Source: Akkermansiaceae bacterium
GTDB lineage: Bacteria > Verrucomicrobiota > Verrucomicrobiia > Verrucomicrobiales > Akkermansiaceae
Length of the DNA stretch: 64,000 nucleotides
Direction of reading: 5' to 3'
Assembly: GCA_025354565.1 (NCBI GenBank)
Contig: JANXMQ010000014.1
Location: forward strand, 1 to 64,000
Notes under the pieces: generated by a model
What the model saw: the letters and a program-made list of their open reading frames with translations, nothing else
Database searches by the model: none
Told to the model about the DNA's origin: nothing
Shown here: piece by piece, positions 17,614 through 62,369 of the stretch
Layout: each line of letters starts with the position of its first letter
How positions within the stretch are numbered: the stretch's first letter is position 1
Position numbers and translations under genes: made by a program

Positions 17614-17655
17614 GGTATGTTGATTTTCAGTGGTTTAGGGAGATTTTAGGGAGGG

Positions 17656-17823
17656 CCGGAACGACTCAGGCTTAGGCTTGGAAGACGCAGGCTTAGGCTT
17701 GGAAGACTCAGGCTCGCGCTTGGAACGCGCAGGCTTAGGCTTGGAAGACGCAGGCCCGGGCTTGGAAGACTCAGGCTCGCGCTTGGAACGCTCAGGCCCG
17801 AGCTTGGAAAGCTCAGGCCCGGG
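17656..17823. repeat. 21-bp minisatellite, 8 units
   Basis: Eight tandem 21-bp units of the type CTTGGAAGACGCAGGCTTAG plus G, starting at 17656 (degenerate), 17677, 17698, 17719, 17740, 17761, 17782 and 17803, with a broken ninth unit after 17823. The variable positions cluster in the centre of each unit. On the minus strand it stays open as a 7-aa repeat (SLSLPSx), but that frame has no other protein-like sequence. It lies directly upstream of the 55-aa gene. Confidence 0.9.
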
Positions 17824-17885
17824 CGTGGAGTCAGGTGGGTCATGAGAGGGGCGGGCGCGGTCATGTAGGTGGAGAAGTGGCGCAA

Positions 17886-19187: not shown

Positions 19188-20270
19188 ATGGCTACAAAAG
19201 TTGGAGTGATCGGGGCGGGTGGGATGTTACAATACCACGCCGCAGGGTTTCGTCAGGCAGGTGCGGAAATCGTCGCCGTCGCGGACCCTGCGCCGGGTGC
19301 CGCCGCCAAAGCTGCGGCGAGGTGGGACATTGCGAAAGCCTGCGAATCGGTCGAAGCCATGCTCGCGGATTGCCCGGAGCTTGACGCCGTGAGCATCATC
19401 GTTCCGAACAAATTTCATGCCCCGCTCGCGCTCCAATGCCTCAAGGCGGGCAAGCACGTTTTCTGTGAGAAACCGCCCGCGCTCAAGGCCTCCGAGGTCG
19501 CGGAAATGATCGCCGCCGCCGATGCCGCTGGCAAAAAACTGATGTTCAATTTCAACAACCGCGCCCGACCCGAGGCGCAGGCGATGAAGGCCTACATCGA
19601 CACCGGCGTCACCGGCACCATCAACTCGGCCCAAGCGAAATGGATCCGCCGCACCGGCATCCCCGGCTTCGGTGGCTGGTTCACGACCAAGGAGTTGTCT
19701 GGCGGTGGCCCGGTCATCGACCTGCTCCACATGATCGACCTCGCATTGTATTTCATGGGCTACCCCGAGCCGGCGCATGTGCTGGCTAACACCTTCGACA
19801 CCTTCATCACCGACAAAAATTTCAAAGGCCCGTGGGGCATTCCCGACCGCGCCGATGGCACGAACAACGTCGAGGCCGCCGCCCATGGCTTCGTGACTTT
19901 CAAAACCGGCCAAGTTCTAACACTCCAAGTTTCGTGGGCGGAAATGGTCAAGCGCGAGGAAGTCTCCGTGGTCTTCCAAGGCAGCGGCGCAGGCGGCAAG
20001 GTCGAACGTCTTTTTGGCCGCGATGGACTGGATGAGACCGCCATCGACACCTGCGAACTCTACGTCCAGGAAAACGGCAACAGCGTCAACCGCAGCATCG
20101 TCGTTCCCGCCTGCGAGGACATGGGCCGCAGCAATTCAGCCCGCAATTTCATCGAAGCCATCGAGGGCATCGCCGCGCCGCTCAACACGCCGACCGAAGC
20201 CCTACGCCTCATGCAAATCATCGACGCCATCTATCAATCCGCCACCACCGGCAAACCTGTATCAATCTAA
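19188..20270 (+). CDS. Gfo/Idh/MocA family oxidoreductase
   Basis: 360 aa. N-terminal Rossmann fold with GVIGAGGM, then the family EKPPA motif (about residues 92-96) holding the catalytic-lysine position. The C-terminal dimerisation domain has GGGPVIDLLHMIDLALYFMGYPEP, where the conserved D and H sit. Likely NAD(P)-dependent sugar or polyol dehydrogenation; the substrate cannot be read from sequence. It is followed by a second member of the same family. Confidence 0.9.
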   Translation: MATKVGVIGAGGMLQYHAAGFRQAGAEIVAVADPAPGAAAKAAARWDIAKACESVEAMLADCPELDAVSIIVPNKFHAPLALQCLKAGKHVFCEKPPALKASEVAEMIAAADAAGKKLMFNFNNRARPEAQAMKAYIDTGVTGTINSAQAKWIRRTGIPGFGGWFTTKELSGGGPVIDLLHMIDLALYFMGYPEPAHVLANTFDTFITDKNFKGPWGIPDRADGTNNVEAAAHGFVTFKTGQVLTLQVSWAEMVKREEVSVVFQGSGAGGKVERLFGRDGLDETAIDTCELYVQENGNSVNRSIVVPACEDMGRSNSARNFIEAIEGIAAPLNTPTEALRLMQIIDAIYQSATTGKPVSI

Positions 20271-44831: not shown

Positions 44832-44849
44832 GTACTGGAGCACACAAAG

Positions 44850-44939
44850 TTGATGGTTGAGAGTTGATGGTTGATAGCGAAGAAAAACTCCTGCACTGCC
44901 TCTTTCTCTTACTATCAACTCTCAACTCTCAACCATCAA
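44850..44939. repeat. 28-bp inverted repeat between moxR and the DUF58 gene
   Basis: Left arm 44850-44877 and right arm 44912-44939 pair at 26 of 28 positions around a 34-nt loop. Both arms are built from TTGATGGTTGAGAGTTGA-type heptad-like units (CTCTCAACCATCAA). It lies in the intercistronic gap and could tune expression of the downstream gene relative to moxR. Confidence 0.8.
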
Positions 44940-44975
44940 CTCCCTCTGAGCGATTCCCTCAAGCTTCCCGACTGC

Positions 44976-51963: not shown

Positions 51964-52917
51964 TTAGGGCTTTGGATTCGGCTCAGCGGGCTTCGCATCC
52001 GCAGGCTTCTTCGCGGCTGGCTTCGGTTCGGTAAACGGCGGATTCGTCATCGCCTCAGGGGCAGCGGTCTTGAGATTCGGCGGGATTTCCGCATCGACAT
52101 CGCGGGTCGCCCAGCGGATCGCGCCGGTGAGGATGTTTTGGAACGCTGGGTTGGTCCAGATGTCATCGCGGTGGCCCATCGCCGTGTAAAAGACCCGGCC
52201 CTTGCCTTCCGCGCGCGCCCAGGTGGTCGGGTAGGCGGGGCGCTGATAGGGGCCGCCCTTCATCGCTGGCGCGTCGATTACGGTTAGCACGTGGATGTCC
52301 GAGGAAAAATCCTTGAGCGAATACCATTCCTCGTTGAACGAGAAACTTTCGCCCACATCCGAAAAGCCCGGAAACGCCTTGTCGATGACCTTGTTCGTTG
52401 CCACCTGCTGGGCGCCGTGGATGATGAACTCGCCGCCTAGGAAGCGGACGTAGGGATCGGCATCCTTGCCGTGATTCGTATAGCGATCCGGGCCTTTTTT
52501 CGACTCGTTCGCGGTGTGAAAGGTATCGCTGGCGGAATGCAGGCCGATAAAGCCCTTGCCACTTTTCACATAGTCGAACAAGGCTTGCTTGCCTGCGGGT
52601 GACATTGGCGGTTGGGCATCGGTACCCGAGGTAGTCAGGTCGCCAGTGGTGTAGAAAATCACCGCATCAAAGCCCGCGAGGTAATCTTTGGAAAATTTCG
52701 AGCCATCTTTGGAAAACTCGAATTCCCACGGGTGCTTGGTGCCAAGCTCGATGAAAATCTTTTCCGCGACGCTCGGTTTTCCGCTCTTCCATGAAATCAC
52801 GCTGTGTTCAAAGCCGCTAGACTTGGTGAAAAACAACAGCTTGTGGGACGGCTCCGCAAGTAATGGGCTGAATAACCCGAGACCCAAGGACAACAGCAAT
52901 GTAGGGGTTTTAAACAT
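51964..52917 (-). CDS. secreted ThuA-like protein
   Basis: 317 aa. Signal peptide (about 1-21), then the ThuA fold: KLLFFTKSSGFEHSVISW, GFDAVIFYTTGDLTTS, KGFIGLHSASDTFH, GKGRVFYTAMGHRDDIWTNPAFQNILTGAIRWATRD. The tail is rich in Lys, Pro and Ala (KPAAKKPADAKPAEPNPKP). ThuA-like proteins have a class-I glutamine-amidotransferase-like fold of unclear activity and are very abundant in this phylum. Downstream of tilS on the same strand but 83 bp away. Confidence 0.87.
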   Translation of the reverse strand: MFKTPTLLLSLGLGLFSPLLAEPSHKLLFFTKSSGFEHSVISWKSGKPSVAEKIFIELGTKHPWEFEFSKDGSKFSKDYLAGFDAVIFYTTGDLTTSGTDAQPPMSPAGKQALFDYVKSGKGFIGLHSASDTFHTANESKKGPDRYTNHGKDADPYVRFLGGEFIIHGAQQVATNKVIDKAFPGFSDVGESFSFNEEWYSLKDFSSDIHVLTVIDAPAMKGGPYQRPAYPTTWARAEGKGRVFYTAMGHRDDIWTNPAFQNILTGAIRWATRDVDAEIPPNLKTAAPEAMTNPPFTEPKPAAKKPADAKPAEPNPKP

Positions 52918-53000: not shown

Positions 53001-54077
53001 TCACTCTAACTCAATCCACAAGCGTCCCGCGCGGCGGCGGAATTTGCCCCCGCCGGGGAGATTGATCACCGCCGGAAGAGTCACATCCAGCAGGCCGGTG
53101 CAGCGCACGATCAGATCCCGATCCAAGGCACCAATCCCGTGATCGGTTAAAAACTTCCGCACCACGAGCCGTTGCATGACCGGTGGCAGTAATCTGAGCG
53201 CGCCGAGATGCAAGCGTCCTTGTGGATCGTGTACCTTCGTTTGCTCCAGTGCCCAAGTTTCCAAGTGGGCGAGCGCTTCCGCATCGTCCGCGCCGCGCGT
53301 GAAGGCCGACACCGCATCGCGTCCGGAAATTTCTCCTAACAATGGCAGTGCCTCATGCCGCAACCGATTCCGAATGGCGATGGGTTCCGCATTGCTCGCG
53401 TCCTCCCGCCAGCGCTTTTTGTTAGCAAGTAACCAGTCGCGCAATTCCACCCGCCGCACCCCTAACAAGGGGCGATGAATTTCCATTTTCACGCCGGACT
53501 CCGTGATGATCTGATGTTCGGGGCGCATCCCTTTCATGCCGTATGAGCCGCGCAGCAGGTTCCACAAAACCGTCTCCGCTTGGTCATCCGCGTGATGGGC
53601 TAACAGGAGCCGCGGGCATTTATATTTAGTCACGCAGTTGGCGAAAAACTCATGCCGTGCAGTGCGGGCTGTCGTTTCCATCGACCCGCCGCTTTCGGCC
53701 ATCCGCTTCGCCACATCCATGCGGCCGATTTCACACTCCAGCCCGTGACGCTGCGCCAGTCGTTTGACAAATTTCGCATCTGCAGCGGATTCCTGCCCGC
53801 GCAGGCCGTGATCCAGATGGCAGACGATTGGATTTAAAAATCCTGCCTCTATCAGCAAATGCAACAATGCCACTGAATCCGCACCGCCGGAAACGCCGAC
53901 CAGCCAGCGCTTGCGGCGTGATGCGGCGGCGAACCAGGGTGCTTTTCGCAAGATCGTCACCCGGCCATTCTGAGCGCGAATCGGTTCCGCTTGCCAGCCA
54001 TATTCCGGCGGTTGATCGGCGGTGAGTTGGTCGTAGTTTCCGGCCTGGAGCCAGAGTCTTGCGACGAGTTCATTCAT
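53001..54077 (-). CDS. tilS: tRNA(Ile)-lysidine synthetase
   Basis: 358 aa from the ATG at 54077, which overlaps the upstream stop (ATGAATGA). N-type ATP pyrophosphatase loop VGVSGGADSVALLHLL (about residues 58-73), HLDHGLRGQESAADA, HHADDQAETVLWNLLRGS and DASNAEPIAIRNRLRHEALPLL. It converts C34 of tRNA(Ile)(CAU) to lysidine and is normally essential. The first 50 residues are unusual: residues 7-21 (RLWLQAGNYDQLTAD) are encoded by a 43-bp segment identical to one in the BatE-like gene. The native start may have been lower, for example a GTG near residue 40. Confidence 0.93.
   Translation of the reverse strand: MNELVARLWLQAGNYDQLTADQPPEYGWQAEPIRAQNGRVTILRKAPWFAAASRRKRWLVGVSGGADSVALLHLLIEAGFLNPIVCHLDHGLRGQESAADAKFVKRLAQRHGLECEIGRMDVAKRMAESGGSMETTARTARHEFFANCVTKYKCPRLLLAHHADDQAETVLWNLLRGSYGMKGMRPEHQIITESGVKMEIHRPLLGVRRVELRDWLLANKKRWREDASNAEPIAIRNRLRHEALPLLGEISGRDAVSAFTRGADDAEALAHLETWALEQTKVHDPQGRLHLGALRLLPPVMQRLVVRKFLTDHGIGALDRDLIVRCTGLLDVTLPAVINLPGGGKFRRRAGRLWIELE
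54016..54058 (-). repeat. 43-bp exact duplication, copy in tilS
   Basis: Identical over 43 bp to 60607-60649 and in the same reading frame on the same strand. It ends 19 bp inside the tilS start codon. Confidence 0.9.
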
Positions 54078-57030
54078 CGAAAACGAAAACCTCTCCCCAA
54101 GTAGTCGGCTGCACGCCAGCATATCCCTTGGTCATGAGATTGACCCTCTTCATCACACCGTCCGTCGCTGGCAGCGGAATCGTGAAATATTCACTCCATG
54201 GCGCATCCGGGTTGCCACCCCAATTCCAGCTCCCGGTTGTCACCAGTGATGGCCTCGTCGGTTCCGCTCCGGGCTCGTCTGGCAAATCCGGGTATGGCGG
54301 CTCCGTGCCATGGCTGCCTTCTGTCACCCAGACCGCGTGCGCTGCCCGCTGCGCCACTACCCCATCGTAGGCATCCCTCAGAGCCTTCCAATCCGTCCAT
54401 TCTTTCGGGAAAAAACCAATGTCCCATTGCACCTCGAACACCGTTCGCAGCACCGGGATTTGGGGTTCCGCCCCTATCGAACCGCCCGCCAACCACGCCG
54501 CGTGGAGGGCTGTAGCTACCGCGTGCGCCGCCGTATATTCTCCGTAGTTTGGAGTGTTCGGGATACCCACGCGGAATCGCGCCTTTAGCGCCTGAATTTC
54601 AGCTCCGTCTCCCGGCGCTGGTGAGGTCGCACTGGTGGAACTGAAACAGTAGCTGCCTAGCGTGCCGCCAGATCCTTCCAGTGTGGTCGGGAAATCCAAC
54701 GCTCCCATTATTACTGCCCGCGCGGCAGACTGCCAATCCGCGAGGCTCGTCCCTTCGTCGTAGTGATCGTCTGGCCCTGTCGTGGTAACGACTCCATCTG
54801 TGATAAAAAGCGGGCCAGCATTCACTACCACCTGCTTCGTCGTGATCGGAAAGCCGTCAACGGGCACCAGCGTGCCATTCACCAGCGTCCACAGCGTGAC
54901 CACATTGTCTGTGGTCACGCGATATGAGCAGGGCGGATAGACAGAGGGTGGATCGTCGGGATTCGCATCACCCGACGCGTTAGAAATCGTCTTCGTGGTG
55001 GTGCTAATTGTCTTGGTCTCGAAGGTGGCGGGGTCGGTGTCGAGGTCGTAATCCAATGTGTTGGCCGAGCTGTATTCCCCCACGCATCCGCAGATCGCCT
55101 TCCCGATAGGCGTGAACGAGTGAGAGCCGCCTGGCTCGGATACTTCGCCCTGATAATTGATGTCGTATTCCACGCCCGTGGTGATGGACCCACTGCTCGA
55201 TCCAGTGACACGGGCGCTATCGCTGATGTAAGCATCCCCATCTCCCACCTTAGAGGTCACTGTCCATTTCTTCCGATAAATTTTCCAGGTTTCATCGGCT
55301 GGATTAGAAAAACCGTAGCTACCCAATGACGCGAACACGCTTTGGCAATCTATCCTCGGCTCCGGGTTCGTCGGAGTTTCATAATAGAAGTGAATGGCAG
55401 CTACGGCGTGGCCAGCTTCAATAGGATCAGCCTCGCTGCCATTTTCGTTTAAGCCAATGGCCCCTTTATAAACCAGCATGCATTCGGAATCTACGGACAA
55501 TGGCTCAAAACTTGCGTTGATCGTTTCACCGTCTTCGAGGATCCTTGAATTATTCCACGAGCCATTATCAACTACTAAAGTACTTACCTCAGACCGGGTT
55601 TCGTTGGAATCATGCGTATCATAATAAAGTTTAAACACTCCTCCTTTGATCGCGCTGCCTGACCTATTGGTAATCACAAGCTTCTCCTTGCCTGTCTCCT
55701 CGTCCCACTCAATGCTGACTTCGAGCTTCCCGCGGAAGAAGTAATCCAGAAGACCGGCGGTGTATTGGATTGCCTTGGGCAATACGGTTTTATGGTATTG
55801 CGCCAGCACGTCTGGGGCATTAATTGACACATTTGGTGGTCCAGAGTTTTCATTACCTCCATCAATTCTAGTATCAAATACTGTCGAGTAATTAAGAAGA
55901 GAATGCTTTTCCACCGTAACTCCTGACCGCTCCTTCTTTAAAAAGACACTTGCACGAAGTTTTCCTGACTTTGGATTTTGTTTGGAAAGATCTGTCCATG
56001 TGACAGCTTTCAAAAAAAAACCTGGATTTAAGGGAGAAAAGGTCTTGAAATTAGTATCCGTTAAGGCGGGATGAGAGAAATTTTGGTTCCCGCCAGTCAC
56101 CTCTTCATAGGAAGCGTCTTCTCCCAAAAAATTGCCGTTAACAAACTCCGCAAGACCGAGTATGGCACCAGAAGCGGCTGCATTCTCGCTGGTGTCTGCA
56201 TCCAAAGCAGCCGGGTTCCCGTTATAAATTCCCCGATCCCAAAAATCCTTTATCCTGACAAAGCGAGCCGCACGCCAGTCCAAGGCCTTAACGCCTGCAA
56301 GCTCTGCCCATGTCCTTATACGTGTGATATTATCGGCACCATAATTCTCAATCCATCTGAATTTATCTATCAAGTGGGCATCATTGCGCACGTGATCCGG
56401 CTGAGATAGATCTTGCAATAGATGGCTCACTTTCCCTAGTGCATAAAATGTGTGGGCAAGGTGCGATTCACGGTGTTGTTTGACCGGTAATGTCAAAGCG
56501 CGAAAATACAAAAGACGGGCTTCATTCCAGCATTCCAAATTCGCTCCGGGTGGTGACTTGTTTGTTATCGGAGGCGGTATAAAATTATCGCCTGTTGTGG
56601 CCCATTGGAAGGAATCGCGTCCACCTACCTCAATTGGATCTGTAAGAGCATGTTTGCCGTCAACCGGAATAGGATTATAAAAATGAGCCAAGCATCGGTT
56701 GTTTGGGTCATCCTCATCGATCGCCCCTGCAATGAGCCATTTTTTTAGTGTCCATGGTCGATCAGTCCACTTATCAAACGCCGTTATGATCATGTCCTTT
56801 TTCGATAATGAGTCAGCTCCACCAGCCATTGCAGAAAAATCTGGAGTATCCGAAGGATCAATAGAAAGGTCTCTAAAAAATGTATTATCGGCTTCTTGGC
56901 TCCAAGCGTCATACGCTCTATCCGTCAGCATTGGATGAATGGTAAGGTTATCGTGAGCGTGCAGGCGGGGCAATAAAACGATTATTCCCGCCAACAACAG
57001 TCGAAGTTTTAAGTCTTTCATGGTCATCAT
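54070..57030 (-). CDS. large secreted zinc-dependent phospholipase C-like protein
   Basis: 986 aa; the ATG at 57030 overlaps the upstream stop. Signal peptide (about 1-25, ending LHAHD). An alpha-helical domain (about 26-300) holds SHLLQDLSQPDHVRND near residue 201, with H/D/H spaced 4 and 6 apart exactly as the zinc ligands of Bacillus cereus phospholipase C (118/122/128). It also has AHFYNPIP and a later acidic residue in FRWIENYG. The remaining 650 residues are beta-rich, unassigned. Probably cleaves phospholipid or a related phosphodiester outside the cell; activity is inference. Its stop codon overlaps the tilS start. Confidence 0.68.
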   Translation of the reverse strand: MMTMKDLKLRLLLAGIIVLLPRLHAHDNLTIHPMLTDRAYDAWSQEADNTFFRDLSIDPSDTPDFSAMAGGADSLSKKDMIITAFDKWTDRPWTLKKWLIAGAIDEDDPNNRCLAHFYNPIPVDGKHALTDPIEVGGRDSFQWATTGDNFIPPPITNKSPPGANLECWNEARLLYFRALTLPVKQHRESHLAHTFYALGKVSHLLQDLSQPDHVRNDAHLIDKFRWIENYGADNITRIRTWAELAGVKALDWRAARFVRIKDFWDRGIYNGNPAALDADTSENAAASGAILGLAEFVNGNFLGEDASYEEVTGGNQNFSHPALTDTNFKTFSPLNPGFFLKAVTWTDLSKQNPKSGKLRASVFLKKERSGVTVEKHSLLNYSTVFDTRIDGGNENSGPPNVSINAPDVLAQYHKTVLPKAIQYTAGLLDYFFRGKLEVSIEWDEETGKEKLVITNRSGSAIKGGVFKLYYDTHDSNETRSEVSTLVVDNGSWNNSRILEDGETINASFEPLSVDSECMLVYKGAIGLNENGSEADPIEAGHAVAAIHFYYETPTNPEPRIDCQSVFASLGSYGFSNPADETWKIYRKKWTVTSKVGDGDAYISDSARVTGSSSGSITTGVEYDINYQGEVSEPGGSHSFTPIGKAICGCVGEYSSANTLDYDLDTDPATFETKTISTTTKTISNASGDANPDDPPSVYPPCSYRVTTDNVVTLWTLVNGTLVPVDGFPITTKQVVVNAGPLFITDGVVTTTGPDDHYDEGTSLADWQSAARAVIMGALDFPTTLEGSGGTLGSYCFSSTSATSPAPGDGAEIQALKARFRVGIPNTPNYGEYTAAHAVATALHAAWLAGGSIGAEPQIPVLRTVFEVQWDIGFFPKEWTDWKALRDAYDGVVAQRAAHAVWVTEGSHGTEPPYPDLPDEPGAEPTRPSLVTTGSWNWGGNPDAPWSEYFTIPLPATDGVMKRVNLMTKGYAGVQPTTWGEVFVFDE

Positions 57031-57716
57031 AGTTTAGGAAGAGGAAGGGTAATATCTTTGAATTTTAAGCCGTCACTACGACTTTTATCGATATTGAGAT
57101 AATGAACGCGAAAGATCCATCCGGTTTTGAGATATTCCAATGGAACCACCTGTTCGCCATATCTCTCCAAAAAAAGAGCCCGTTCCTGGGAAACAAGGCT
57201 CGAAAGTTCCGCATTCAACTTCGCCCCTCCATTGGTATTCCCTATCAATTCGGAATATGAACTAATAAGACTGGTGAGGGCAGAATGCCAAATCACAGGG
57301 TCATCAATTCCGCTTTTTAGATAAATCTTTTTGTTCCACTCATCGAAATATACCGGCATGGCTGGAACAGGTTGCCCCTCATGCCAACGCTCTCCCAGAC
57401 CAATGTCCCCACTTTTCAAGTTAGCTGAATAAATACAGCTATAACCCCTGATCAACCCATCCGGGGTGTCGTCATCAAGATTGATGAGGATCATTCCTGT
57501 GGCATTGCTAAAGCGGTGATTGATAGCAGCCCTGCCAGAATTGGCCAAACTATAACGGCATATAATTAGCACGCCTTCAACTGGCTTACCCTTTCTATCG
57601 TAGCAGTACCAAGTGTCGTCTTTGGTCTGTTTGCAGCCACTAGCCGCAATGAGCAGAACGGGCGTCAGCAGTTTGAGGGCACATCGAATCCAAGGTTTAT
57701 GTAGGGAGGTAATCAT
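57027..57716 (-). CDS. lipoprotein of unknown function
   Basis: 229 aa from the ATG at 57716 (the frame extends to 57755 but would overlap the upstream gene). Lipobox LIAASGC at about residues 21-27. The mature part has WYCYDRKGKPVEGVLIICRYS, a beginning seen in carboxypeptidase-like or CNA-B-like beta domains. It is translationally coupled to the phospholipase-like gene (ATG overlaps stop). Could be its periplasmic partner or inhibitor. AT-rich compared with tilS. Confidence 0.6.
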   Translation of the reverse strand: MITSLHKPWIRCALKLLTPVLLIAASGCKQTKDDTWYCYDRKGKPVEGVLIICRYSLANSGRAAINHRFSNATGMILINLDDDTPDGLIRGYSCIYSANLKSGDIGLGERWHEGQPVPAMPVYFDEWNKKIYLKSGIDDPVIWHSALTSLISSYSELIGNTNGGAKLNAELSSLVSQERALFLERYGEQVVPLEYLKTGWIFRVHYLNIDKSRSDGLKFKDITLPLPKL

Positions 57717-57733
57717 TGAATGGTGGGTCAATA

Positions 57734-59626
57734 CTAAAATGAGAAAATTTTCCATGCACCGTCTTCTCGAATAAAGCTAGCCAAGAAGGTGATCACCCCT
57801 TCGGGGGTGGTGATATCGCCGGCATAGGTGGCAACATCATCATACAGGGCTATTTGCTGGAGTTGACCAAAATCATTTAGCATGGTCGGGGCGAGTTCCG
57901 GTCCAAGCTTGATCATCATCGCCTTGAGACCATCGCGGTGGGATTCGCTCAGACACTCACCGGCCGCCTCAAAATCGCCTGCGGCCACACAGTTTTTGAG
58001 TTTGCTCCACGCGGCCAGCGGGCTGTCTGCTCCACCTGTGACCAGCACGCGCAGGCGCTGGGCGATAGGGACCGAGGGACCAGTTTTATTCTTTCCGGCT
58101 TCCAAGTTGGTGGTTGCTCCATGAAACATACCATGAACAAAAATGTTGCCAAATGAATCTTCGATATGACCAGTGGCAGAATCGCTTGAGACCCCGCCCA
58201 ACGCTTTAGACCAAATAGGTTGGCCTGTCGCTCCGTTGAATTGAACGAGGTATCCATCGTCAGATCCTGCGCTATTGATGTTCATTGTTCCCAATGTGGT
58301 TATCGCACTATTAAATCGTCCTGACGCCGTGACATTCCCCGTGCTGCCGATTGTTACAGATGAAATTTGATCGAAGCCTGAACTGCCTATTTGCTTCGCC
58401 CATAAGACGCCCCCAGCGGAGGAAAACAGAATGACCGCTGAGTCATATGATCCCACGCTTGAAAGGTTTGTTGCCCCTTGTGATGTAACGGAGCCGTCAA
58501 AGGTTGCCCCAGCGGCGACGGACCCATCGCCAGCAATTGCGACTGCTCGAATGAAGTCCACGCTGTTACCTCCAAAGGTCCTGGCCCACTGAACATCTCC
58601 AGTTGAGTTATAGACTGCGACGTAACCATCTGACTGATTTGAAGTGATTTCCTTTCCTGCCCCAAAAAAGTTGGTGACTCCGGAATATCGGCCAGCCGAT
58701 GCAACTTGTCCTGCGGCATTTGCCGCCACTGCGAATGCTTCACAATCGTTTGTAGAAGAGAGGATTTGCTTTGCCCAGATCACCGAGCCATCTGGTGAGC
58801 ATTTAGCAACGAATCCTCCCATCCCTGGCTCCCCACAATATAGATAGGCACTACCGATTGTTGCCGACCCACGGAAATATCCCACTGCATACAAGAAGTT
58901 ACCGACTCCGATCATTTTGTTGATCGTGATGCTCCCTGATGTATTGATTCCACTAATCGGAGTGGCGTTGCTCGGCGTGTCACTATATCCCAGATTGGCA
59001 AGTGTGCTTCTGAGATATTGGACGTTGGATGCATTCAGGGTGTTTCCGCTGCCGAAGTCTGCCCCATTTTCAAACAAAACTTTTGACGAGAAAATCGCAG
59101 CACCATTCGCATCCGCCTTCAAAGCTGGATTTGAATTTCCGCCAAAATAGATTCCGCTGGTGCTGCCAGCAGGCAAAGTGATCTTCCCGGAGTTCGGAGC
59201 CAGTATGATTCCTGCGGTTACGCCGTCAGTCTTGTAGAGAGTGAGACTATTGTCGGCGTCTATCTGCATCTTATTTTTTGCGGAAGCTGACGGGGATGTC
59301 ACGATGGCATCGCGCCAAAGAAAAACGCCATGTGCCTCCGTGATGTCGAAGGCGGTGGTCTTAGAGCCCAGCCAGTTGATGCTGGTTTCCGCGTTTGGCC
59401 CCATGTCGATTCCATCATTGAATTTGCCCCAGCCCGTAGCTGTAATGTTTCCGCTGGCAGTAATGCTTCCACCGGTGGTGAGATCGCCGGTGGCGGTCGA
59501 GTTCGTGGTGAACAGGTCGTTCGTCCCCAAGGTCACCGTGGCTTGCAGTGGCATGACAGTGAGGCAGACTGCAAACGCCATCATAAAGATGGCAGCGAAG
59601 GGATCGGGGCGTGATGTGGAATTCAT
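57734..59626 (-). CDS. secreted beta-propeller protein with NTF2-like C-terminus
   Basis: 630 aa from the ATG at 59626. Signal peptide (about 1-33), an N-terminal region like phage-tail or trimeric-adhesin-type stalk (NITATGWGKFNDGIDMGPNAETSINW, GTNDLFTTNS), then SBBP-like propeller repeats (GGFVAKCSPDGSVIWAKQI, GYVAVYNSTGDVQWARTFGG, AVILFSSAGGVLWAKQIGSSG). A C-terminal NTF2-like segment ends VITFLASFIREDGAWKIFSF. First gene of the four-gene run ending in tilS, 17 bp before the lipoprotein. Confidence 0.7.
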   Translation of the reverse strand: MNSTSRPDPFAAIFMMAFAVCLTVMPLQATVTLGTNDLFTTNSTATGDLTTGGSITASGNITATGWGKFNDGIDMGPNAETSINWLGSKTTAFDITEAHGVFLWRDAIVTSPSASAKNKMQIDADNSLTLYKTDGVTAGIILAPNSGKITLPAGSTSGIYFGGNSNPALKADANGAAIFSSKVLFENGADFGSGNTLNASNVQYLRSTLANLGYSDTPSNATPISGINTSGSITINKMIGVGNFLYAVGYFRGSATIGSAYLYCGEPGMGGFVAKCSPDGSVIWAKQILSSTNDCEAFAVAANAAGQVASAGRYSGVTNFFGAGKEITSNQSDGYVAVYNSTGDVQWARTFGGNSVDFIRAVAIAGDGSVAAGATFDGSVTSQGATNLSSVGSYDSAVILFSSAGGVLWAKQIGSSGFDQISSVTIGSTGNVTASGRFNSAITTLGTMNINSAGSDDGYLVQFNGATGQPIWSKALGGVSSDSATGHIEDSFGNIFVHGMFHGATTNLEAGKNKTGPSVPIAQRLRVLVTGGADSPLAAWSKLKNCVAAGDFEAAGECLSESHRDGLKAMMIKLGPELAPTMLNDFGQLQQIALYDDVATYAGDITTPEGVITFLASFIREDGAWKIFSF

Positions 59627-59653
59627 GGCGATTGAATGAGTTGACTTGGACAA

Positions 59654-59963
59654 GATGCTTGTGAAATTCAGCAGGCGTAGAGTTGTGCGACGGTCATGAC
59701 GAAATTAGAATTCCCATCTAAATCATCATGCAATAACCCACTTAACTATCGGGAAATTCAGTCGCCTGCTAGCAAAAAACTAATGTGTTTACGATAAAAT
59801 GCCGCCACATGTGATTACATTTGAATCCGTAAACGCAACTATAGATCAAATGCCGCGGCTTCAGTGCTCTTTACCAAGTACCGAAGATCGGGACAATAAG
59901 GTCCCGACTCCTTCCCTGAGACGGCTTCTAGTTATGTTCCGGAGGAGGCATACAACAACAACC
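59654..59963. other. AT-rich promoter region with a hairpin
   Basis: 310 bp upstream of the propeller gene and downstream of the BatD-BatE gene. It carries the hairpin TCGGGAC-N6-GTCCCGA (59888-59907) near the BatD end. No run of T follows on the minus strand, so it is a poor terminator. No gene seen. Confidence 0.45.
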
Positions 59964-62369
59964 TCACGCTGATTTCCCATCCGCCTTGGGTTTGCGGAAA
60001 TCGGGTGGGGTGGGGGTGGTGTCGGGGATGACTTTTTCGATGGACTCGATGGGGACCCAGCCGCGGGTTTTGGTGGCGAAGGAGACGTAGGCCCAGCGGC
60101 CTGAGACGCGGATGATTTCGCAGAGCGAGCCGGGCGGCGCGTCGATGACTTCCGGGGCGGTGCGGGCGGCGTCGGTGTGGAGGGCGATTTTTTCGCTGAT
60201 GATGACGGCTTGTCTGATCACGGGTGCGAACTCGGCATCGTTCGGAAAATAGCGCCAGCCAAGGACGCCGGCGGAGATGAGGATGGGGCCGATGACGAGT
60301 GCGCCGACGGCGGCGATTCGTAGGCGAGCCTCGGGCCGGGTGGCGGGGAAAACGAGCAGAGCGAGGCCGCAGAGCCAGAGGCCGCTCCAACCGATCGACT
60401 GCCAGACGGGCAGCGGTAGCTTGGCCAGGGCGTATTGGTATTCCGGGCGTTGGACGCTGATGGAGCCGTATTTTCGTTCGATGAAACGGAGGTTCTGGCG
60501 GGCTTCCGGGTGGGCGGAATTGCGGACGAGGGCGCGGCGATAGTAGAGCGCGGCGTGGCCGGGGGAACCGGAACGATAGCAGGCGTTGCCGATGTCGTAG
60601 AGCGTGTCGGCGGTGAGTTGGTCGTAGTTTCCGGCCTGGAGCCAGAGTCGGATGGCATCGTCGTATTTCGCGGCTTCGTAGGCTTCGGGGGCGGAGGTGG
60701 CGACATCGGCAGCGCGGGCTGGAGGGGCGTGGCCGAGGGTGACGAGGAAAATCAGAGTGACGGCGGTCTTGCGGAGGAGCTTGAGAATTTCGACACGGCG
60801 TTTCGGATCGAGCGCGATCTTGGAATTTCCGGCACGGAAGCAAAGGGCGTCGCGCTCAGCCAGCACGGCTTGGGTTTCCGGGGTAGGACAGCCGCCTAAC
60901 CAACGCTCGATGAAACTTCCGCTGGCTTTGAGAAATTCCTCGTCATCGGCGGTGCGGATTGCATTGAGCTGTGCAAGACGGGCGGCGAGGATCGGATCTT
61001 TCCTGAGCGCTGGTCCATGGCGCAGCCAGAAGGCTTTGGCGATGAGGCCGAGTGCGAGCAGGATGGCGATGACATGACCGAGCCAAAGCGGCGGGCCGGA
61101 CGCGGCTGGCATGGTGAGGCGGGCCGGGCGAAGGATGGCGAGAATGTCAGTCATGCGTTCTAACGGGACCGGTGGCGCGAGGCCGGTGGATTCGGGTTTC
61201 AGTGAGGTGTTAGGATGCATGATCAAGGCGATCGGCGCGGTGGTGACCGTCTTGTAGGTCTCATCCTTGGGGTCGAAATAGACGAGGCGGAAGGCGGGGA
61301 TTTCCGTTTTGATGGACAAGGGGCGGAGCGACTGGTGGAAGACGATGTTGCCGGCAAGCTGGCGGCGCTCATCGCCACGTTCGTTGCTAGTGGTGCCGTA
61401 GATTTTCCAACCGTTGGCATCGGCGAGTTTCGGCGGGTGAAGGGTGTCGAGATTGCCACTGCCGCTGATGACGAGATCCACGGTGACTGGGTCGCCTTCC
61501 TGAATCTCGGTGACGGCGGTGACAGCGCTGAGCTTGAAACTACCGACGGCGTTTTCAAATCCTTCAGGCGCGCCGGGAGGGAGGGGCAGGGCTTCAATTT
61601 CCAGCTTGGGAACATCCAGATAGACCTCCGGATTCACCTGGCGGGGGAAGGGATCCATGATCACCTCGCGGGTGGTGAGTCGGACCTTCGCGGGGCCGAT
61701 GGCGACCTTGCCGGTGCGGGTCGCCGTGATGGTGCTGGGGTAGGAAACGGAGAAACAAGGCGTGCCTAACAAGTTTACGATACCGCGCATCGGCGAGGGT
61801 TGGAACCGCCACGCGGTGATGCCGTCGCGCTCGAAGTCGGGGATGCCCCAGTCCTCGACGGTCAGTTGCTGGGGGACGAAGATTTTGATCTCGGTGGGGA
61901 TGGTTTGGTTTTCATAAACCTTGCCACCCAGGGTGCGGAAGAAACTGGCGTAGCGAACCGTTTTTTCGCCGTTTCGGACCTCGGACCATTTGAGATCGTC
62001 GGGATTGAAAATCACGAAGTCGATCGGCTCGGTTACCGTTTTCAGCCCATCCACCATCACGGAGATCGGTGGGATGGTGTGGCTGCCGATGGCGTAACCG
62101 GAGATGAGATATTCGAAGACATATTCCACCCGACTGACAGTGAGTCTGCGTGTTAGCGGACCACGGCCGGAGGGGCGGATGTCGATGTCTTTGAGGTCGG
62201 AAATTTCCGGGATTTCATCGGGCCTGCCGCCGCTCACGGAGATTTCTAGCAGGGCTTGTTCGCCACGGGCGAGGAAGCATGAAGAGAGTCGGCTGGAGGT
62301 CTGGCCGTGGCCGAGTGCGGCGAGCGCAAGCCAGACGAGAACGACGGTGGAATGTTGCCAAATGTTCAT
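59964..62369 (-). CDS. BatD-BatE fusion with TPR and SH3 domains
   Basis: 801 aa. Residues 1-23 form a signal peptide. BatD domains (to about 420) include the class-typical GSFKLSAVTAVTEIQEGDPVTVDLVISGSGNLD. A membrane helix follows (about 427-447), then around 530-548 a second signal-peptide-like stretch (LLRKTAVTLIFLVTLGHAPPARA) that probably marks the former BatE start. TPRs (about 560-630, KYDDAIRLWLQAGNYDQLTADTLYDIGNACYRSG), two helices and a C-terminal SH3-like domain (GSLCEIIRVSGRWAYVSF) complete it. Part of the aerotolerance operon; 3 bp downstream of the BatB-BatC gene. Confidence 0.85.
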   Translation of the reverse strand: MNIWQHSTVVLVWLALAALGHGQTSSRLSSCFLARGEQALLEISVSGGRPDEIPEISDLKDIDIRPSGRGPLTRRLTVSRVEYVFEYLISGYAIGSHTIPPISVMVDGLKTVTEPIDFVIFNPDDLKWSEVRNGEKTVRYASFFRTLGGKVYENQTIPTEIKIFVPQQLTVEDWGIPDFERDGITAWRFQPSPMRGIVNLLGTPCFSVSYPSTITATRTGKVAIGPAKVRLTTREVIMDPFPRQVNPEVYLDVPKLEIEALPLPPGAPEGFENAVGSFKLSAVTAVTEIQEGDPVTVDLVISGSGNLDTLHPPKLADANGWKIYGTTSNERGDERRQLAGNIVFHQSLRPLSIKTEIPAFRLVYFDPKDETYKTVTTAPIALIMHPNTSLKPESTGLAPPVPLERMTDILAILRPARLTMPAASGPPLWLGHVIAILLALGLIAKAFWLRHGPALRKDPILAARLAQLNAIRTADDEEFLKASGSFIERWLGGCPTPETQAVLAERDALCFRAGNSKIALDPKRRVEILKLLRKTAVTLIFLVTLGHAPPARAADVATSAPEAYEAAKYDDAIRLWLQAGNYDQLTADTLYDIGNACYRSGSPGHAALYYRRALVRNSAHPEARQNLRFIERKYGSISVQRPEYQYALAKLPLPVWQSIGWSGLWLCGLALLVFPATRPEARLRIAAVGALVIGPILISAGVLGWRYFPNDAEFAPVIRQAVIISEKIALHTDAARTAPEVIDAPPGSLCEIIRVSGRWAYVSFATKTRGWVPIESIEKVIPDTTPTPPDFRKPKADGKSA
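60607..60649 (-). repeat. 43-bp exact duplication, copy in BatE-like TPR
   Basis: Identical to 54016-54058 in tilS, same strand and frame, encoding LWLQAGNYDQLTAD. Here it fits naturally between two TPR helices, so this is the likelier source. Confidence 0.9.

Follow-up and report, generated by a model that had tools for sequence, protein, structure and literature searches.

Organisation of the locus

The window analysed here is a stretch of 64,000 nucleotides of an Akkermansiaceae genome. All the features described in this section lie on its minus strand. The tilS gene, coding for the tRNA(Ile)-lysidine synthase, occupies positions 53001-53960, with a GTG start codon at 53960-53958. Its product matches the Pfam families ATP_bind_3 and TilS as well as TIGR02432 (165 bits), comprises a PP-loop ATPase domain with the SGGxDS motif, and scores above the cut-off with the TilS N-terminal model. 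Upstream of tilS, three accessory ORFs separate it from the bat genes. The first one (54070-57030) encodes an orphan protein of 986 aa, for which no family could be found in Pfam, NCBIfam or PHROGs and no match or orthologue in 39 relatives; blast yielded no alignment between this protein and its only partial match (contig C255). The predicted product starts with a hydrophobic, signal-like stretch. The second ORF (57027-57755, 242 aa) is also an orphan with no match in the 39 relatives. The third one (57734-59653, 639 aa) resembles SBBP-repeat beta-propellers: it is detected by the NF047494 model at 34.5 bits, under the curated cut-off, and its matches in relatives are only partial, of repeat type and paralogue-like. 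The GC content is 0.43-0.52 across most of positions 55250-59750, compared with about 0.59 on either side. Finally, the last gene of the moxR-bat operon (59964-62369) encodes a BatD-BatE fusion. BatD and the BatE/TPR part are thus united in a single gene of 801 aa, and this fusion is kept across the genus.

Two segments of this region, at positions 54016-54058 and 60607-60649, are identical over 43 bp (100% identity). Both are on the minus strand, in direct orientation and in the same reading phase, with about 6.6 kb between them, and each of them, read in its local frame, encodes the peptide LWLQAGNYDQLTAD. The first copy is located in the 109-bp gap separating the stop codon of the 986-aa ORF from the start of tilS, 11 bp after the former and 55 nt before the latter. 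The second copy lies inside the BatE/TPR part of the fusion, from about residue 575. The original prediction of an exact in-frame duplication on the same strand was accurate as to coordinates, length, identity and phase. The in-frame placement of the copy upstream of tilS nevertheless carries little weight, with odds of one in three, because many relatives also show long open frames upstream of tilS.

Copy number of the 43-mer

The whole assembly, a draft of metagenome type comprising 5,125,412 bp (5.13 Mb) in 257 contigs, was searched for the 43-mer. Only two copies were found, even when up to 3 mismatches were tolerated, and the reversed pattern used as a control gave no match. An exact pair of such length is expected by chance about 1e-12 times. 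Within the window, this pair is the sole exact repeat of 43 bp shared between loci. Beyond the exact 43 bp, the two loci have no sequence in common, and their flanks are dissimilar on both sides. The original prediction had itself raised the possibility of a repeat present in many copies, and the genome-wide count speaks against it. A dispersed repeat family (REP, MITE or IS fragment) was likewise ruled out on the basis of the two genomic copies. We also looked for the exact 43-mer in IMG/VR, where it is absent, and a viral origin was set aside.

Direction of the duplication

We compared both copies with their counterparts in relatives. The batE segment is encoded in all 22 aligned BatD-BatE orthologues of the same genus, as KLWLxAGxYxxLSADTLYNIGNA with normal variation (for instance KLWLQAGPYEQLSADTLYNIGNA), and the NCBIfam BatC TPR model covers residues 562-635 of the fusion. 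The segment therefore does fit a TPR, as initially proposed. At the DNA level, batE aligns end to end with same-genus relatives with no break across the 43-mer, the gene being intact on either side of it. On the tilS side, an alignment query of the contigs retrieved 80 named loci. The 43-mer is absent upstream of tilS in the relatives examined, the closest of which are about 68% identical in TilS; the possibility that tilS of relatives carries the same segment was thereby checked and not borne out. Since orthologues carry the batE segment and the tilS flanks of relatives do not, the comparison designates batE as the original copy and the tilS side as the recipient of a derived one. Altogether, the 100% identity, the two copies and the batE source support the proposal of a recent, non-chance ectopic duplication from a single source.

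The perfect identity, with no third-position change, could also be expected from a short regulatory element held identical by selection. Against this, the genome has only two copies, the tilS flank of relatives lacks the segment, and its sequence within batE varies freely from species to species, so that we regard this explanation as extremely improbable.

The tilS start codon

The original prediction placed the derived copy within tilS, as a foreign-looking N-terminal insertion giving a chimeric N-terminus to an essential enzyme. This proposal relied on an in-frame ATG at positions 54075-54077, which would lengthen TilS by 39 residues that include the batE-derived peptide. This ATG was described as overlapping the upstream stop codon. 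In fact, it shares no bases with the TGA at 54072-54070, as can be seen in the string ATGAATGA.

Of 29 tilS genes of the same genus, 23 have a start codon (GTG in most cases) located exactly 23 codons ahead of the SGGxDS P-loop, and in 8 of those relatives an in-frame stop upstream bars any earlier start. The GTG at 53960-53958 of the window occupies this conserved position. Because this conserved start lies downstream of the 43-mer, the derived copy is probably located in the upstream gap and not in TilS. The ATG at 54077 is probably wrong as a start, and neither the insertion nor the chimeric N-terminus finds support.

A translated extension starting at this ATG and coupled to the upstream ORF was still considered. 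No stop codon interrupts the frame between 54077 and tilS, a purine-rich GGGGAGAGG is found about 12 nt upstream of the ATG, and the GTG at 53960 has no obvious Shine-Dalgarno motif. This absence says little, as the GTG of many relatives likewise has no clear Shine-Dalgarno motif, and comparable open frames upstream of tilS are common in many relatives. Moreover, nothing in the solved TilS structures corresponds to the extension; their alignment begins only at the strand that leads to the P-loop (chain residues 14-22). Lastly, roughly the last 15 nt before the GTG (GCTCAGAATGGCCGG), within the 55-bp flank separating the copy from the start (53961-54015), resemble the noncoding flank of the closest relatives (L187, where the corresponding nucleotides are GCTCAGGATGGGCGG, L156, L157 and L159), although this signal is weak and restricted to close relatives. 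Across the genus, conservation of the tilS 5' flank did not stand out (mean z of 0.77, versus 0.43 and 0.87 for control segments) and was clear only in L187 and L156. Given the start position common to the 23 relatives, we judge a chimeric TilS unlikely. The more specific reading, in which a 14-residue batE-derived segment within the translated 39-residue leader, coupled to the orphan ORF, would give rise to a lineage-specific TilS isoform, appears slightly less likely still. The apparent chimera more likely reflects the choice of a too early start codon, that of the longest open frame. The derived copy would then be untranslated, or at most part of a dispensable leader, and most likely has no function.

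Two further observations were made in the vicinity of the tilS start. At three loci of relatives (L163, L164 and L165), a palindrome-like sequence, TTGGCAG-TG-CTGCCAA, is found just upstream of tilS, and its half-site CTGCCAAG is kept in other relatives; it is a possible operator or promoter element. We also searched the whole genome with positions 53940-54120 for additional templated patches. Only one extra match of note was obtained, between the tilS start region (53940-53966) and an unrelated gene in contig C147 (8765-8791), with 25 of 27 bases identical. With an E-value of 4e-4 for the genome, this match is probably due to chance.

A lineage-specific junction

The gene neighbourhood of tilS was then compared with that of relatives. 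Orthologous batDE was found within 10 kb of tilS in no relative examined, and the flanks covered at about 70 tilS loci of relatives contained neither orthologous batDE nor any of the accessory ORFs. One tilS locus (L161) does contain a bat paralogue, which is 25% identical. In G004, a relative available as a single contig, tilS and batDE are separated by about 2.7 Mb in contig coordinates. As both the set of accessory ORFs and the proximity of tilS to bat are lineage-specific, tilS together with a short part of its own 5' flank has come to lie, in this lineage, beside accessory DNA located downstream of the bat operon. The derived 43-mer sits exactly at the seam between the tilS flank and the accessory DNA.

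Other genes of the region also differ in order. In the relative G009, a ThuA-like gene that is 79% identical to window positions 51964-52917 is located just before moxR (L240, from 2659 onward), while hisS-aspS adjoin tilS (L039, 5645-10383). The window shows the opposite arrangement, with ThuA adjoining tilS and hisS-aspS adjoining moxR. This swapped gene order indicates that the neighbourhood has been reshuffled.

A junction found in no relative examined, in a draft of 257 contigs, calls for caution, as chimeric reads or a false join could have produced the tilS-side copy. We examined this from the assembly contigs alone. The overlaps between contig ends reach exactly 141 bp, a hallmark of a de Bruijn graph with k=141, which implies that each copy with its unique flanks fits within one word and should be spanned by single reads. 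A repeat of 43 bp would make the graph branch only if k were no larger than 43, and unique sequence borders the copy on either side. Besides, even a false join would require two genuine junctions around this 43-mer. A misjoin induced by the repeat is thus unlikely, and an assembly or library artefact in general seems improbable to us.

The two direct repeats enclose about 6.5 kb, including the lineage-specific, lower-GC ORFs, an arrangement that could evoke the target-site duplication or att sites of an integrated element. Yet the right copy lies inside batE and is separated from the accessory DNA by about 640 bp of normal, conserved batE; beyond the left copy there is no displaced 3' end of batE, and no integrase or transposase was detected among the enclosed ORFs with Pfam, NCBIfam and PHROGs. 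We consider this explanation very improbable.

Proposed origin of the derived copy

We favour with reasonable confidence a recent templated insertion, i.e. a patch left by template switching or break repair at a rearrangement breakpoint, as the origin of the 43-mer next to tilS. Three properties of the locus are consistent with it: the inserted piece is an exact copy of a locus which is itself intact, the insertion is found at a novel junction absent from relatives, and the flanks are dissimilar on both sides, which excludes homologous recombination or gene conversion. The original prediction mentioned template switching or ectopic gene conversion as examples of mechanisms. As a class of mechanism, template switching or a non-reciprocal copying step across 6.6 kb still fits best, but gene conversion is a misnomer, since batE has no homology to either flank and no sequence was converted.

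In the proposed sequence of events, the accessory segment would come first, and a replication fork or a break under repair would subsequently switch template back to batE, about 6.6 kb away. There, 43 nt would be copied once in direct orientation, before a second switch onto the tilS flank. Equivalent routes would be a tandem duplication with a subsequent deletion, or a break repaired with a DNA patch. The enzymatic route, the order of the steps and a history consisting of a single event are what we infer from the present arrangement. We inspected the edges of the copy by eye for microhomology and found nothing convincing. The decay of a longer duplication was also envisaged and rejected, only the exact 43 bp being common to both loci; just a very recent, trimmed version of it would fit.

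Complex junctions at which template switching has inserted sequence from nearby are known from E. coli and from human copy-number variants (PMC3161906, PMC2621351). The present case resembles these long-distance template switch or MMBIR junctions in that nearby sequence, lacking extended homology with the flanks around it, is found at a novel junction, the source being local (6.6 kb) and in direct orientation. It differs from them in that only the final product is seen, in a wild genome, with no amplification. A second comparison can be made with the human templated sequence insertion polymorphisms (TSIPs) of class 2, which are patch-like insertions (PMC5110952). The latter share with the 43-mer the short copied patch, the lack of a target-site duplication and the consistency with break repair. 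By contrast, the 43-mer is bacterial, its source is nearby and not distant, and it is present in a single assembly rather than being a known polymorphism.

The copy is a real but ordinary scar of copying or repair, which probably leaves the TilS enzyme unaltered. Template switching and break repair leave small fossils in the form of short exact duplications at rearrangement junctions, and this copy is a clean and datable one from an uncultured Akkermansiaceae genome. It also calls for caution in gene calling, as the longest-ORF start of tilS would yield a false chimeric protein. What is known of TilS or BatE is unchanged by this finding.

Similar duplications in the genome and in relatives

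Repeat baselines were established from 729 kb sampled from this genome and from 1.08 Mb of relatives' loci. In the 729-kb sample, just two exact repeats longer than 40 bp were found that were interior, isolated and present in two copies, namely the 43-bp pair and one 48-bp pair overlapping a tRNA. The latter is a direct repeat with copies 17.3 kb apart on contig C10 (locus L098, 2295-2342 and 19639-19686), one of which overlaps a tRNA-Lys gene (19644-19717, minus strand) in its 3' part; the pair looks like att sites bordering an integrated element.

In the relatives' 1.08 Mb, we found several exact duplications of 46-128 bp that are isolated and local and whose flanks are dissimilar, roughly three or four per Mb. 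Examples are a 46-bp pair (L200, 7348 and 9042, 1.7 kb apart), a 128-bp pair (L204, 14212 and 15034) and a 78-bp pair (L190, 19532 and 19688). Like the 43-mer pair, they are exact and local and have dissimilar flanks, and they possibly result from the same kind of event. Their copies are 0.2-1.7 kb apart, whereas those of the 43-mer are separated by 6.6 kb and involve a lineage-specific junction. The duplication of the 43-mer thus belongs to a known type of event, and one that is not very rare.

Two repeats of other types were observed elsewhere in the window. Positions 17646-17834 contain seven overlapping copies of a degenerate repeat with a period of 21 bp, an in-frame length. Positions 44848-44941 form a near-perfect inverted repeat of 30 nt with a 34-nt loop, made of AGTTGATGGTTGA-type units.
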